Shown piece by piece: positions 55,719 to 59,374 of a stretch of 64,000 nucleotides of DNA. The notes beneath the pieces were generated by a model. It ran no database searches. It was not told the DNA's origin and worked only from the letters and a program-made list of their open reading frames with translations. The DNA is taken from NCBI RefSeq assembly GCF_002021815.1, contig NZ_CP019952.1, positions 2,511,001 to 2,575,000 of the forward strand. The letters run 5' to 3'. The translations under genes were made by a program, and so were the position numbers. Numbering within the stretch: position 1 is the first letter of the stretch; the number at the start of each line of letters is the position of its first letter. This DNA comes from Pseudomonas parafulva (GTDB taxonomy: Bacteria > Pseudomonadota > Gammaproteobacteria > Pseudomonadales > Pseudomonadaceae).

Positions 55719-56468
55719 TCACAACGTCGTGCGCAAGGCCTCGCCGATACCCACACCGCGACCATCATCGGCAGCACTGACCAGGGCGAAATTGTAGGCG
55801 CCATGGGACCAGTATCGGGCCTGGAGCTGCCCATCGATTCGCTGCCCTTGCGGCATGCGCCGGAAGTGCTCGCCGGGTGAGCGCAGGAACAGGCTGATAC
55901 GGCGCCCCGCCCCGTCCTGGAACACCACCAGCGCCGCCGGCCCTTGCTCGTTACTGAGCAGCCGGGCGCCCACCGGGGCGAACCCGTAGCCTGCCAAATC
56001 AGGCAGTTGGCCCACCTGGTGAAAGTGCGCTTGCAGCCAGGTGCGCAATTGATCGGGGTCACGCGCCTGAATATCCAGCGCTTGGCTGTCGGCGAACAAT
56101 CGGTGGGCCTGCACGGCATCAGCCATGGGCTTTGCGTCGGCAAAGCTGGCATCGCGCGCCTGCCACCCGCCAAGTCCCCCAACGCCTAAGGCTAGGACGA
56201 TCGCTGCAGCACTTGCCCAGCGACGCTTCAGGCGGTGTCGCGCCTGTTGGCGCAGCTGATCGCGGTCAACCCGCGGGCCCGCCAGCGGCTGCGCAAGGCC
56301 CGCCAGGCTCGTACGCAACTGGCGCGCATCGGCGCGCCAGCCTTCCACACGCTGCGCAGCCTTTGGATGATTGGCCAGCCAGGCCTGGACTTCGGCACGG
56401 CGCACCGGGTCCAGGCGGTCATCGACGTAGGCGTGAAGCTCTTCTTCGCTAGGAATAAGACGGGTCAT
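55719..56468 (-). CDS. prtR: Transmembrane anti-sigma factor (PrtR-like)
   Basis: Protein of 249 residues. The N-terminal cytoplasmic part (EELHAYVDDRLDPVRRAEVQAWL) is the zinc-less anti-sigma pattern of ChrR/RsiW-type proteins, one membrane helix follows (SAAAIVLALGVGGLGGWQA, about residues 86-104), and the periplasmic part has FAPVGARLLSNEQGPAALVVFQD and RSPGEHFRRMPQ. It should hold the ECF sigma factor inactive until a periplasmic or membrane signal. Gene order sigma then anti-sigma with an ATGA overlap is usual. The name comes from P. fluorescens PrtI/PrtR, as I recall it. Confidence 0.83.
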   Translation of the reverse strand: MTRLIPSEEELHAYVDDRLDPVRRAEVQAWLANHPKAAQRVEGWRADARQLRTSLAGLAQPLAGPRVDRDQLRQQARHRLKRRWASAAAIVLALGVGGLGGWQARDASFADAKPMADAVQAHRLFADSQALDIQARDPDQLRTWLQAHFHQVGQLPDLAGYGFAPVGARLLSNEQGPAALVVFQDGAGRRISLFLRSPGEHFRRMPQGQRIDGQLQARYWSHGAYNFALVSAADDGRGVGIGEALRTTL

Positions 56469-56986
56469 TTCAATCTCCGCAAGGCCGGTGGTCGAGGGCT
56501 GTCCTCGGTCAATGCACGCAGGGCATCGCGCGCCCGCGACAGCCGTGACATGACAGTACCGATTGGAATACCCAACGTCTGGGCAGCCTCCTTGTAACTC
56601 AGGTCCTCAACGCTCACTAGCAACAGCAACGCGCGCTGCTCGGTCTTGAGCCGGCCAAATGCCTGCAAATCCGCCTGCGCCAGCACGATGTCCTCAAGGT
56701 TATCGCCGGCCGTTTCTTCGGCAGCGCTACTGCTGGCGAACCAGGACAGCCAGCGGGCATGCAACCGTTCTCGCCGTTTGCCATCAAGAAACAATCGATA
56801 AAGGATGGTGAAGAGCCAGGCGCGCAGGGCATCGGGATCCTGATGCTGCTGACGCCGGCTCAAGGCACGCTCGACCGTGGCCTGCACAAGGTCATCCGCA
56901 CTTCCCGCCTCGCGGGTCAGCCAGAGGGCGAAGCGACGCAGTCGGGCCAGTAGCGCTCGCCATTGTTGGTCGTCCAAGTCCTGCAT
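56465..56986 (-). CDS. prtI: ECF-family RNA polymerase sigma factor (PrtI-like)
   Basis: Protein of 173 residues with region 2 (RRFALWLTREAGSADDLVQATVERAL, ALRAWLFTILYRLFLDGKRR) and region 4 (LKTEQRALLLLVSVEDLSYKEAAQTLGIPIGTVMSRLSRARDAL), shown here by those blocks. It directs transcription from GGAATAA-N14-CGTC type promoters, of which two, one for itself and one for the divergent peroxidase operon, lie just upstream. The anti-sigma gene overlaps its 3' end. Conditions that release it are unknown; oxidative or singlet-oxygen-like stress would fit the peroxidase target (inference). Confidence 0.87.
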   Translation of the reverse strand: MQDLDDQQWRALLARLRRFALWLTREAGSADDLVQATVERALSRRQQHQDPDALRAWLFTILYRLFLDGKRRERLHARWLSWFASSSAAEETAGDNLEDIVLAQADLQAFGRLKTEQRALLLLVSVEDLSYKEAAQTLGIPIGTVMSRLSRARDALRALTEDSPRPPALRRLK

Positions 56987-57025: not shown

Positions 57026-57050
57026 GACGCGTTGGAGAAAAAGTTATTCC
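57026..57050 (-). promoter_or_regulatory. ECF-type promoter of the sigma factor gene
   Basis: On the minus strand GGAATAA (57050-57044) and CGTC (57029-57026) are separated by 14 nt. It would give a leader of about 30 nt before the sigma factor ATG at 56986, the layout of autoregulated ECF genes. Confidence 0.7.
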
Positions 57051-57069
57051 CGCTCGGGGAATAACTTTT
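57039..57069. repeat. Perfect 13-bp inverted repeat joining two ECF promoters
   Basis: AAAAGTTATTCCC (57039-57051) and GGGAATAACTTTT (57057-57069) are exact inverse copies around GCTCG. Each arm contains the -35 element of one of the two divergent promoters. Confidence 0.85.
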
Positions 57070-57082
57070 CCAGGGCAGCGTC
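57058..57082 (+). promoter_or_regulatory. ECF-type promoter of the peroxidase operon
   Basis: GGAATAA (57058-57064) and CGTC (57079-57082) are separated by 14 nt, identical in both boxes and spacing to the divergent promoter of the sigma gene. The peroxidase ATG is 36 nt after the -10 box. Confidence 0.7.
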
Positions 57083-57118: not shown

Positions 57119-58165
57119 ATGAACCAACCTTTGCACGGCCGGGCCAAGGCCTGGCGGCTTGCCGCAATCGGCGCGGTGATGCTGGCTGCCGGTGCGGGCT
57201 TCGCCTACAGCGCCGGCTGGCTTGGCCAATCCGCGCTCACACCACAGCGCATCATCGACACGTTCGAGGCCCAGGCTGGGCACTACCCGGGTTATCGCAA
57301 GAACCACGCTAAAGGCCTGTGCGTGAGCGGCTATTTCCAGGCCAGCGGGCAAGCGGCAAGCTTGTCGACGGCACGGGCATTCACCCAGGCGCATGTGCCG
57401 GTCACAGGCCGCCTGGCCATTGGTGGTGCCAACCCGTTTGCGCCTGACACCGGCATCCCCGTGCGCAGCCTGGCAATCGAACTCGCCACCGACGATGGGC
57501 AAGTCTGGAGGACCGGCATGAACAACCCGCCCGTTCTGGCGGTAAGTACGGCCGAGGCGTTCTACGAGCAGGTGCTGGCCAACACCCCGGACCCGGCCAC
57601 GCGCAAGCCCGACCCTGCCAAGGTACAGGCCTTCTTTGCAGCCCACCCCGAGAGCGCCGCGTTCAGGCAATGGGCAGCCAGCTACAAGCCCAGCGACAGC
57701 TTCGCCAACACCCAGTACCACAGCATCAATGCATTCAAGTTGATCGATCACGACGGCCATGCCCATCCGGTGCGCTGGCAGCTTGAACCGCTCACGCCGT
57801 ATACGGCCTTACCGGCGAAGGTGGACGACCCTCTGTTCCTGCAACATGACCTGCGACGACGGCTGGCGCTGGGGCCGTTGCGCTGGACCCTGCGCCTGGT
57901 ACTGGCCGAACCGGACGACGCTATCGACGACCCTGCCAAGCCTTGGCCAGCGAGCCGGCGCAGCGTCAACGCAGGCACCCTGGTGCTTGAGCAGGTCGAC
58001 GCACCGGAACAGGGTGCCTGCCGCGACCTCAACTTTGACCCCTTGATACTGCCCCACGGCATCGAACCCTCCGCCGACCCTATACTCGCGGCCCGGTCAG
58101 CGGCCTATTCGGAATCATTCAACCGTCGTAGCCGCGAGTCCTTGAGCACGGGAGCCCGACCATGA
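57119..58165 (+). CDS. Catalase-related peroxidase (SrpA-like), membrane-anchored or exported
   Basis: Protein of 348 residues from ATG 57119 (with GGGA upstream). A signal/anchor helix (AAIGAVMLAAGAGFAYSAG) is followed by the small-catalase fold: the distal His in YRKNHAKGLCVSGYF near residue 63, an Asn in SFANTQYHSINAFK, and the heme-ligand Tyr in RSAAYSESFNRR near the C-terminus. It lacks the catalase C-terminal domain, as usual for these peroxidases, which remove organic or hydrogen peroxide. It overlaps the cytochrome b561 gene by 4 nt, so both are probably periplasm-facing partners. Confidence 0.85.
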   Translation: MNQPLHGRAKAWRLAAIGAVMLAAGAGFAYSAGWLGQSALTPQRIIDTFEAQAGHYPGYRKNHAKGLCVSGYFQASGQAASLSTARAFTQAHVPVTGRLAIGGANPFAPDTGIPVRSLAIELATDDGQVWRTGMNNPPVLAVSTAEAFYEQVLANTPDPATRKPDPAKVQAFFAAHPESAAFRQWAASYKPSDSFANTQYHSINAFKLIDHDGHAHPVRWQLEPLTPYTALPAKVDDPLFLQHDLRRRLALGPLRWTLRLVLAEPDDAIDDPAKPWPASRRSVNAGTLVLEQVDAPEQGACRDLNFDPLILPHGIEPSADPILAARSAAYSESFNRRSRESLSTGARP

Positions 58166-58689
58166 AACCCACCGCCTTTCATCCCGTCGCCCGCCTGCTG
58201 CACTGGTCGATGGCGTTCCTGATCCTGGCCATGCTCTTGATCGGCGTGAGCATGGTCACGGACCTGTCGGTCCGTCACCCCGTACTGGTCAGCTTGCACA
58301 AGATCACGGGGCTTGCGCTGCTGGTGCTGATCGTAGCGCGCATCATCGTGCGCCTGAGCATTCCCCATCCACCTCTGCCCCAGGACCTACCAGCCTTCCA
58401 GCGCCTGGCTGCCGGCGCTTCGCACCTGCTGCTGTACGGCCTCATGCTAGCCATGCCCTTGCTGGGGTGGGCCATGCTCTCGGCCGGCGGGTACCCTCGC
58501 CCGTTTGGCCTGCCGGCGATCGTGCCCCATGATTTGCAGCTGTATGCCGTGCTGCGCCAGGCGCACGGCTGGGGAGGCTACCTGTTGTTCGCCACGGTAC
58601 TGGTACACGTGGGCGCTGCGCTGATGCACGCCTGGGTTCGCCGTGATGGGGTGCTGCGCAGCATGTGGCCAGGATCAAAGGCGGACTGA
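58162..58689 (+). CDS. Cytochrome b561
   Basis: Protein of 175 residues with four membrane helices and the conserved histidines of bacterial b561: FHPVARLLHW at the start, VSLHKITGLALL in helix 2, and VLVHVGAALMH in helix 4, which ligate two hemes b. It should pass electrons, likely from quinol, to the peroxidase encoded just upstream, giving a quinol-dependent peroxidase system (inference from the overlap and the shared ECF promoter). Its last 10 residues are soluble. No gene follows closely. Confidence 0.85.
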   Translation: MKPTAFHPVARLLHWSMAFLILAMLLIGVSMVTDLSVRHPVLVSLHKITGLALLVLIVARIIVRLSIPHPPLPQDLPAFQRLAAGASHLLLYGLMLAMPLLGWAMLSAGGYPRPFGLPAIVPHDLQLYAVLRQAHGWGGYLLFATVLVHVGAALMHAWVRRDGVLRSMWPGSKAD

Positions 58690-58828: not shown

Positions 58829-59374
58829 ATGGACACGGGGACGCGACTCAAACTAGTGCGTGAACGCAACAACCTCTCCCAGCGAGAGTTGGCGCGCCGC
58901 AGCGGGCTCACCAACTCGACCATTTCGCAGATCGAGCAGAACCGCGTCAGCCCATCGGTCAGTTCCTTGAAAAAGCTGCTGGAGGGCATTCCGATGAGCC
59001 TGGCAGAGTTTTTCAGCTTCGATGAACCCGTGCGTGAGGAGCGTTTCGTGTTCCGGGCGGGCGAGCAGCCCGACTTGGGTCGCAACGGATTGCGCATGCT
59101 GCTGGTAGGTGCCAGCGTCGAGGGCCGGCAAATGCGCATGCTGCGCGAGCTTTACGCCCCAGGTGCCGACTCGGGCGAGCCCATCGTGCATGCCGAGGGC
59201 GAAGAGTGCGGGCTCGTCACGCGAGGCACCGTCGAGCTGTGGGTCGATGGCCAGGTCAGCGTGCTCAATGCGGGAGATGGCTACTACATCCCTACCACCC
59301 TGCCCCACAGTTTCAAGAATATTGGCCAGGACGAAGCAGAGATCATCAGCGCCAATACCCCCGCGAACTTCTGA
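58829..59374 (+). CDS. XRE-cupin transcriptional regulator (PuuR-like)
   Basis: Protein of 181 residues from ATG 58829 with AAGGCGG upstream. An N-terminal HTH_3 (TRLKLVRERNNLSQRELARRSGLTNSTISQIEQN, shown in part) is joined to a C-terminal cupin_2 domain (GEECGLVTRGTVELWVDGQ, LNAGDGYYIPTTLPHSFKN). The group includes PuuR and relatives that regulate polyamine or amino-acid use by binding small ligands in the cupin. No catabolic gene is next to it, so the target is not seen. It ends 11 nt before a perfect hairpin and is convergent with a transporter gene. Confidence 0.85.
   Translation: MDTGTRLKLVRERNNLSQRELARRSGLTNSTISQIEQNRVSPSVSSLKKLLEGIPMSLAEFFSFDEPVREERFVFRAGEQPDLGRNGLRMLLVGASVEGRQMRMLRELYAPGADSGEPIVHAEGEECGLVTRGTVELWVDGQVSVLNAGDGYYIPTTLPHSFKNIGQDEAEIISANTPANF

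Follow-up and report, generated by a model that had tools for sequence, protein, structure and literature searches.

Genes and promoter-like elements of the locus

The window analysed here is a stretch of 64,000 nucleotides from Pseudomonas parafulva (contig NZ_CP019952.1, positions 2,511,001 to 2,575,000 of the forward strand), whose genome consists of a single contig of 4.69 Mb. It contains two divergent gene pairs. On the minus strand, an open reading frame at 56465..56986 encodes a 173-aa sigma factor matching PF04542/PF22029 and PF08281/PF04545 above cut-off, that is, sigma-70 regions 2 and 4 and no other sigma-70 region, which defines it as an ECF sigma factor; TIGR02937 is also matched above cut-off. 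The protein is ECF26-like, being 41% identical over 146 aa to Sinorhizobium meliloti RpoE6, the only ECF26 member compared, and carries the label “PrtI-like”. The sigma gene is overlapped by a gene for a putative anti-sigma factor of 249 aa (55719..56468, minus), assigned from an NF052375 match that lies below the curated cut-off (E 2.8e-9); the profile search gave no Pfam match for this protein, and its single hydrophobic segment, near residue 84, has a borderline score of 1.51. Anti-sigma factors of the ECF26 group have a single transmembrane segment together with a periplasmic domain.

On the plus strand, a gene at 57119..58165 encodes a predicted catalase-related peroxidase of 348 aa with the catalase fold (PF00199, E 5.1e-22) and a hydrophobic segment near residue 14. 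Its H63 and Y330 are invariant across 14 sequences and presumably play the roles of the distal His and proximal Tyr of the catalase fold. The overlapping gene at 58162..58689 (plus) encodes a 175-aa prokaryotic cytochrome b561 (PF01292) with four hydrophobic segments. By sequence, the nearest solved relatives of the two proteins are PDB 3e4w, which we take to have peroxidase activity, and E. coli PDB 5oc0, presumably a superoxide oxidase. The b561 protein may feed electrons to the peroxidase. The initial annotation had named a membrane quinol-peroxidase as the target of the sigma factor; the peroxidase-b561 operon holds as the probable target, the quinol part of the name being plausible only. 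Downstream of the b561 gene lies a gene for a PuuR-like XRE/cupin regulator (58829-59374, plus).

Between the two gene pairs, the pattern GGAATAAN{13,15}CGTC has its two matches in the window, at 57026-57050 on the minus strand and 57058-57082 on the plus strand, each with exactly 14 nt between GGAATAA and CGTC. Shuffled sequences gave a mean of 0.06 matches, and two matches in 0 of 100 shuffles, so that the divergent pair of boxes first read from the letters is confirmed. The candidate promoter of the sigma/anti-sigma operon (57026..57050, minus) comprises a -35 GGAATA at 57050-57045, 15 nt and a -10 CGTC at 57029-57026, and that of the peroxidase/b561 operon (57058..57082, plus) a -35 GGAATA at 57058-57063, 15 nt and a -10 CGTC at 57079-57082. 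The two -35 hexamers are 7 nt apart and do lie, as had been noted, within a perfect 13-nt inverted repeat (left arm 57039..57051, right arm 57057..57069) around a 5-nt centre.

The motif by itself is not rare, and the significant point is its paired placement between divergent genes together with its conservation. Genome-wide, GGAATAN{14,16}CGTC occurs at 11 sites in 4.69 Mb vs 12 for a reversed-pattern control, and a regulon beyond the locus in the source genome was rejected on this count. Most of the genomic sites inspected fall within open reading frames. One intergenic site (L002), located 53 nt upstream of the first ATG in a reading frame for an alpha/beta hydrolase, was taken as chance because the sister genome reads GGGATA there, and at another (L006) no reading frame of at least 110 aa was found.

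Conservation of the predicted promoter pair

Loci for comparison were picked on protein similarity alone, the motif scan being done afterwards. Of the 149 genomes searched within the genus, 108 had a sigma match (E <= 1e-20), identity reaching 43% at best in the most distant one; in a sample of the phylum, 44 of 398 genomes had a peroxidase match (E <= 1e-30). After removal of duplicates, of loci with no sigma match and of those with the sigma start less than 200 nt from the locus end, 216 loci were reduced to 191 distinct ones. The peroxidase gene is divergent and adjacent in 146 of these; 42 have no adjacent peroxidase in the DNA covered, and the remaining three are single operons, two led by the peroxidase gene and one by the sigma gene.

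A strict promoter motif, defined as GGAATA-N15/16-CGTC, points towards both genes in 145 of the 146 divergent loci, the sole exception (L058) having a sigma-side -10 that reads CGTT; with a relaxed motif the figure is 146/146. At these loci, the regions upstream of sigma (65,700 bases) hold 291 strict matches vs 3 in the 630,188 bases outside them. Most loci (139) have 15/15 spacers, four have 16/16 (corresponding to three changes on the tree) and two have 15/16 (L204 and L210). Of the 146 loci, 26 lie outside the genus of the window or in organisms not named Pseudomonas, 19 of them in Burkholderia, Frateuria, Lysobacter and a relative, Dyella, Nevskia, Xanthomonas, Pseudoxanthomonas, Arenimonas, Gluconobacter and Acetobacter. 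Among laboratory strains, Pseudomonas capeferrum WCS358 has the locus (L115). Loss of the boxes in related species had been named beforehand as an outcome that would speak against the promoter reading; the boxes are kept, and this comparison shows that both predicted promoters are conserved.

The 42 loci without an adjacent peroxidase behave differently: none of them (0/42) has a strict second promoter in the upstream DNA covered, which ranged from 715 to 4,036 nt and was under 2 kb in five. The strict sigma promoter itself is present in 19 of the 42 and missing in 23, mostly alphaproteobacterial. Near matches facing the other way occur in L250, with a relaxed second match beginning GGAATC, and in L032 and L033, with GGAATA-N15-CGTA. 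A Cupriavidus plasmid (L319) has the sigma promoter and no peroxidase match in the 7.4 kb of sequence covered.

When 17 of the 19 genomes having the sigma promoter and no adjacent peroxidase were searched, 13 were found to hold a close peroxidase relative elsewhere (65-94% identical to the query), and in all 13 the displaced gene keeps its own promoter. A more distant copy (46%) in one of these 13 genomes is without it, as are all peroxidase operons having no sigma match within about 4 kb (promoter in 0/16). In displaced loci both promoters persist 3-4 kb apart. Where sigma, anti-sigma, peroxidase and b561 genes form a four-gene single operon, one promoter stands at its head, strict in L148, L171, L172 and a Pantoea plasmid (L317), and with TGTT in L170 or CGTT in L122 and L124 as the -10. 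Since displaced and one-operon loci keep the promoter and sigma-less peroxidase operons lack it, the promoter follows the sigma/peroxidase pair and not the place.

Several of these rearranged loci present further peculiarities. Five displaced loci that were read through (L311-L315) have a three-gene cassette between the two promoters, encoding in L313 an AMP-binding enzyme, a protein without a Pfam match and an enoyl-CoA hydratase. In Pseudomonas japonica (L309) the displaced peroxidase frame has one internal stop, the promoter being kept. The sigma-first operons of L148, L171 and L172 carry on their other strand a second similar site, GGAATAAGC-N12-CGTC, with no reading frame of at least 90 aa starting within 250 nt. 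Finally, L173 has a peroxidase gene without a b561 match, a distant sigma-like match downstream and no motif; it fits no class and was excluded from the counts.

Promoter spacing, A/T tracts and the inverted repeat

The two predicted promoters are kept in nearly all related pairs; their perfect mirror image is hardly conserved. The gap between the -35 hexamers varies from 3 to 205 nt. Most loci (84) have gaps of 23-31 nt; another 32 have gaps of 7-9 nt, 25 have gaps of 34-51 nt and three have gaps of at least 63 nt, while L058 has the shortest, at 3 nt, and a single locus has 13 nt. Changes between the tight and wide arrangements number at least seven on the sigma tree (FastTree, with many weak branches).

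A recurrent feature lies upstream of most of the -35 boxes. Numbering the first G of GGAATA as -36, the positions -55 to -46 are 92% A/T on both sides in the 23-31 gap class; the corresponding figures are 81% and 83% for gaps up to 13 and 74% and 68% for gaps of 34-51. At least seven of these ten positions are A/T in 127/146 sigma and 131/146 peroxidase promoters vs 5.7% of 10-nt windows from the same regions. The 66 loci with a gap of 28 (18.8 effective) share the central consensus ATTTATTTTT, whose core TTTATTT is found at 89-100% of weight and whose flanks vary, and two A/T runs can be made out by eye in the eight loci with a gap of 43-44, which sit at two different places on the tree. An A-rich tract also accompanies the displaced peroxidase promoters of L297-L307. 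Of the 146 loci, 16 have a weak tract (<0.6) on one or both sides, and three members of the clade of the window where the gap has widened (L019, L021 and L118) have lost it on one or both sides.

In the window, the tract of the plus promoter, at about -55 to -46, is AAAAGTTATT (57039..57048, plus), which is on the opposite strand the -35 box and spacer start of the minus promoter; reciprocally, the same tract for the minus promoter (57060..57069, minus) coincides with the -35 box and spacer start of the plus promoter. Both stretches are candidate UP elements. The -35 box and spacer start of each promoter would thus occupy the place of the UP element of the other because the hexamers are only 7 nt apart. 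Spacers are A/T-rich in 28/34 tight vs 26/111 wide loci, the opposite -35 box itself supplying part of the A/T richness in the tight ones; a link between tight gaps and A/T-rich spacers independent of ancestry found no support among three pairs on supported branches (median p 1).

The A/T tract is probably, though by no means certainly, an UP element contacted by the alpha subunit of the polymerase. The block fits the UP consensus AAAWWTWTTTT given in the accessible part of PMC2412878, and ECF promoters taken from G+C-rich genomes were often inactive in E. coli unless supplied with an UP element, according to the available text of PMC3817407. An alternative, albeit an unlikely one, is that the tract is bound by nucleoid proteins or some specific regulator and not by the alpha C-terminal domain. 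A/T-rich DNA attracts H-NS-like proteins, and the TTTATTT core of the 28-nt class is perhaps stricter than an UP element needs; against this, the tract keeps its position with respect to each -35 box as the gap changes, it is doubled at 43-44 nt and also stands before many single promoters, and its fit to the published UP consensus points to the alpha subunit.

The UP reading also bears on the inverted repeat. Counted from the first G, the mirror arm is 12 nt long in the genome of the window (13 with the preceding G), 14 in its sister and 11 in L031. Such runs of at least 11 nt are confined to three of the 33 listed tight loci (L007, L008 and L031), the other 30 having arms of 6-8 nt. Lack of conservation of the long arms was first indicated by GGGAATAACTTTT-N9-CGTC, which occurs in two of 149 genomes, that of the window and its sister. 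With long arms so restricted, the perfect repeat appears, on this comparison, to be a local by-product of two similar predicted promoters with A/T-rich spacer starts.

This result tells against the repeat being an operator at which a further repressor or activator controls both genes, as had been suggested in the initial annotation, or a structure selected for binding of one polymerase at a time. These are improbable explanations, despite the perfect 13-bp arms and a mirrored run beyond the box that, in the 32 loci with a gap of 7-9, slightly exceeds that of shuffled pairings (mean 1.03 vs 0.65 nt, p 0.005). Total spacer matches in tight loci show no excess over such pairings (6.09 vs 6.00, p 0.37), the bases between the -35 boxes vary along with the gap, and both promoters persist when kilobases apart. 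Two holoenzymes would be unlikely to fit with a 7-nt gap, so that exclusion may operate in the tight arrangement, even though the variable gap indicates that it is not a conserved property. The proposal of one control point likewise gives way, the promoters being separable. The mirror symmetry itself does not appear to carry the function, a role that the A/T element upstream may have instead.

We give about even odds to the overlap of core and UP sequences, as opposed to a repressor site, being the best explanation of the inverted repeat. More tentative, and to our minds rather doubtful, is the proposal that the UP tract constitutes a third element which divergent pairs place in various ways, their spacing setting the balance between feedback and output. 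The placements would form a series, from overlap with the opposite core (gap 7-9) through a shared tract (about 28) and a long tract (35) to two tracts (43-44), and, if the proposal is true, sigma and target promoters would fire in mutual exclusion at the start of this series and independently at its end. In any case, the natural spacing series offers ready-made variants of back-to-back promoters sharing or competing for polymerase.

Probable regulation by the sigma factor, and related systems

The reading of the boxes as promoters is strongly supported by comparison. The sigma factor most likely reads both, judging from their co-occurrence and the published ECF26 consensus: the strict motif agrees with GGAATA/GT and GGAAT/CGTC, as listed in the available parts of PMC6180224 and PMC6527743, respectively. 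In the model favoured here, to which we assign a probability of roughly 0.87, the two divergent promoters are read by the neighbouring ECF26-type sigma factor, which would control its own synthesis and have the peroxidase/b561 operon as a direct target. The putative membrane anti-sigma factor would release the sigma factor upon a signal that is probably peroxide, and the resulting holoenzyme would transcribe both the sigma operon (autoregulation) and the operon for the catalase-related peroxidase and cytochrome b561, each promoter being composed of a -35 GGAATA and a -10 CGTC separated by 15 nt, or by 16 nt in a few lineages. The same regulatory link had been proposed from the window, and the paired promoters of the divergent loci, the promoters retained by displaced peroxidase genes and their absence from sigma-less operons now lend it considerable weight.

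It might be argued that the promoters are real and read mainly by another ECF sigma factor, the neighbouring one being one of several, since the ECF26 sigma factors of S. meliloti cross-activate promoters (available portions of PMC6180224 and PMC10880074). This is very improbable, as the second promoter goes with the sigma/peroxidase pair, being kept in divergent and displaced loci and missing from sigma-less peroxidase operons, and GGAATAA-N14-CGTC occurs at 2.48 sites per genome vs 1.56 for the control in 71 genomes with the sigma factor, compared with 0.75 vs 1.82 in 28 genus genomes without it (99 in all, the 43%-identical match of G060 being scored absent). That the boxes reflect chance similarity or a terminator hairpin is practically negligible: a five-pair terminator-like match does exist at 57047-57060 (mean 0.3 in shuffles), but the repeat is situated between divergent genes and precedes the predicted starts of both, and the boxes are conserved in every divergent locus under the relaxed motif.

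The promoter type is a known, ECF26-like one, to which the locus adds another case. As described in the accessible text of PMC6180224, the sigma genes for RpoE1, RpoE4 and RpoE6 of S. meliloti are followed by a gene for a membrane anti-sigma factor, as the sigma gene of the window is by a putative one, their promoters have a GGAATA-like -35 and a CGTC or CGTT -10, their regulons are small, and RpoE6 drives a divergent neighbour, SMa0142. Accordingly placed sequences, GGAATA-N15-CGTT, are found on pSymA upstream of ecfR6 and of SMa0142. The targets differ, as those in S. meliloti include a sulfite oxidase, a serine protease and others instead of a peroxidase with b561, and the signal for RpoE1 and RpoE4 is sulfite (PMC3511301, in the part available). 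Two records count against autoregulation as a precedent: the rpoE6 promoter sequence listed in the available text of PMC6180224 is without GGAATA, and the sigE promoter of Starkeya novella, as given in the corresponding text of PMC6527743, is without the ECF26 consensus.

A closer parallel may be Burkholderia cenocepacia, in which BCAL3478 (EcfB, “PrtI-like”) is divergent from the putative catalase gene BCAL3477, a likeness that rests on name, divergent catalase and gene length, not on the J2315 sequence. The two genes are induced together by H2O2 and are not induced by NaOCl, according to the accessible part of PMC2830190. Apart from that remark on co-expression, no description of the promoter pair was found in the largely open-access literature, as far as the sources were available in full text or in part. 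Both promoters are present in seven Burkholderia records. PrtI/PrtR of Pseudomonas fluorescens, from which the PrtI-like label derives, combines a sigma with an anti-sigma factor in broadly the same way, a likeness of type and not of compared sequences; PrtR is, we assume, involved in protease control. PrtR has also been linked to germination-arrest-factor activity (PMC2997014, in part). The label itself fits, BCAL3478 being called PrtI-like in the available text of PMC2194791.

The model would assign a defined output, the membrane peroxidase together with b561, to a widespread, little-studied sigma/anti-sigma pair at promoter resolution and across several bacterial families, and it would therefore provide a testable regulon for “PrtI-like” sigma factors.

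Some loci present the motif before other genes. In L291 (1723-2233), from a genome without a peroxidase match, it stands before a DUF305 gene at a distance of about 4 kb from the promoter of the sigma gene. In L283, L284, L286 and L293, strict GGAATA-N15-CGTC (promoter near 2500) lies 69-70 nt before the gene for a small secreted protein, identified by Pfam as DUF2790 in the three of these four genomes of the genus that were checked and likely a second target of the same sigma factor. In L287, L288 and L292, the same motif stands about 90-105 nt before the gene for a secreted alpha/beta hydrolase (Pfam assignment from L288).
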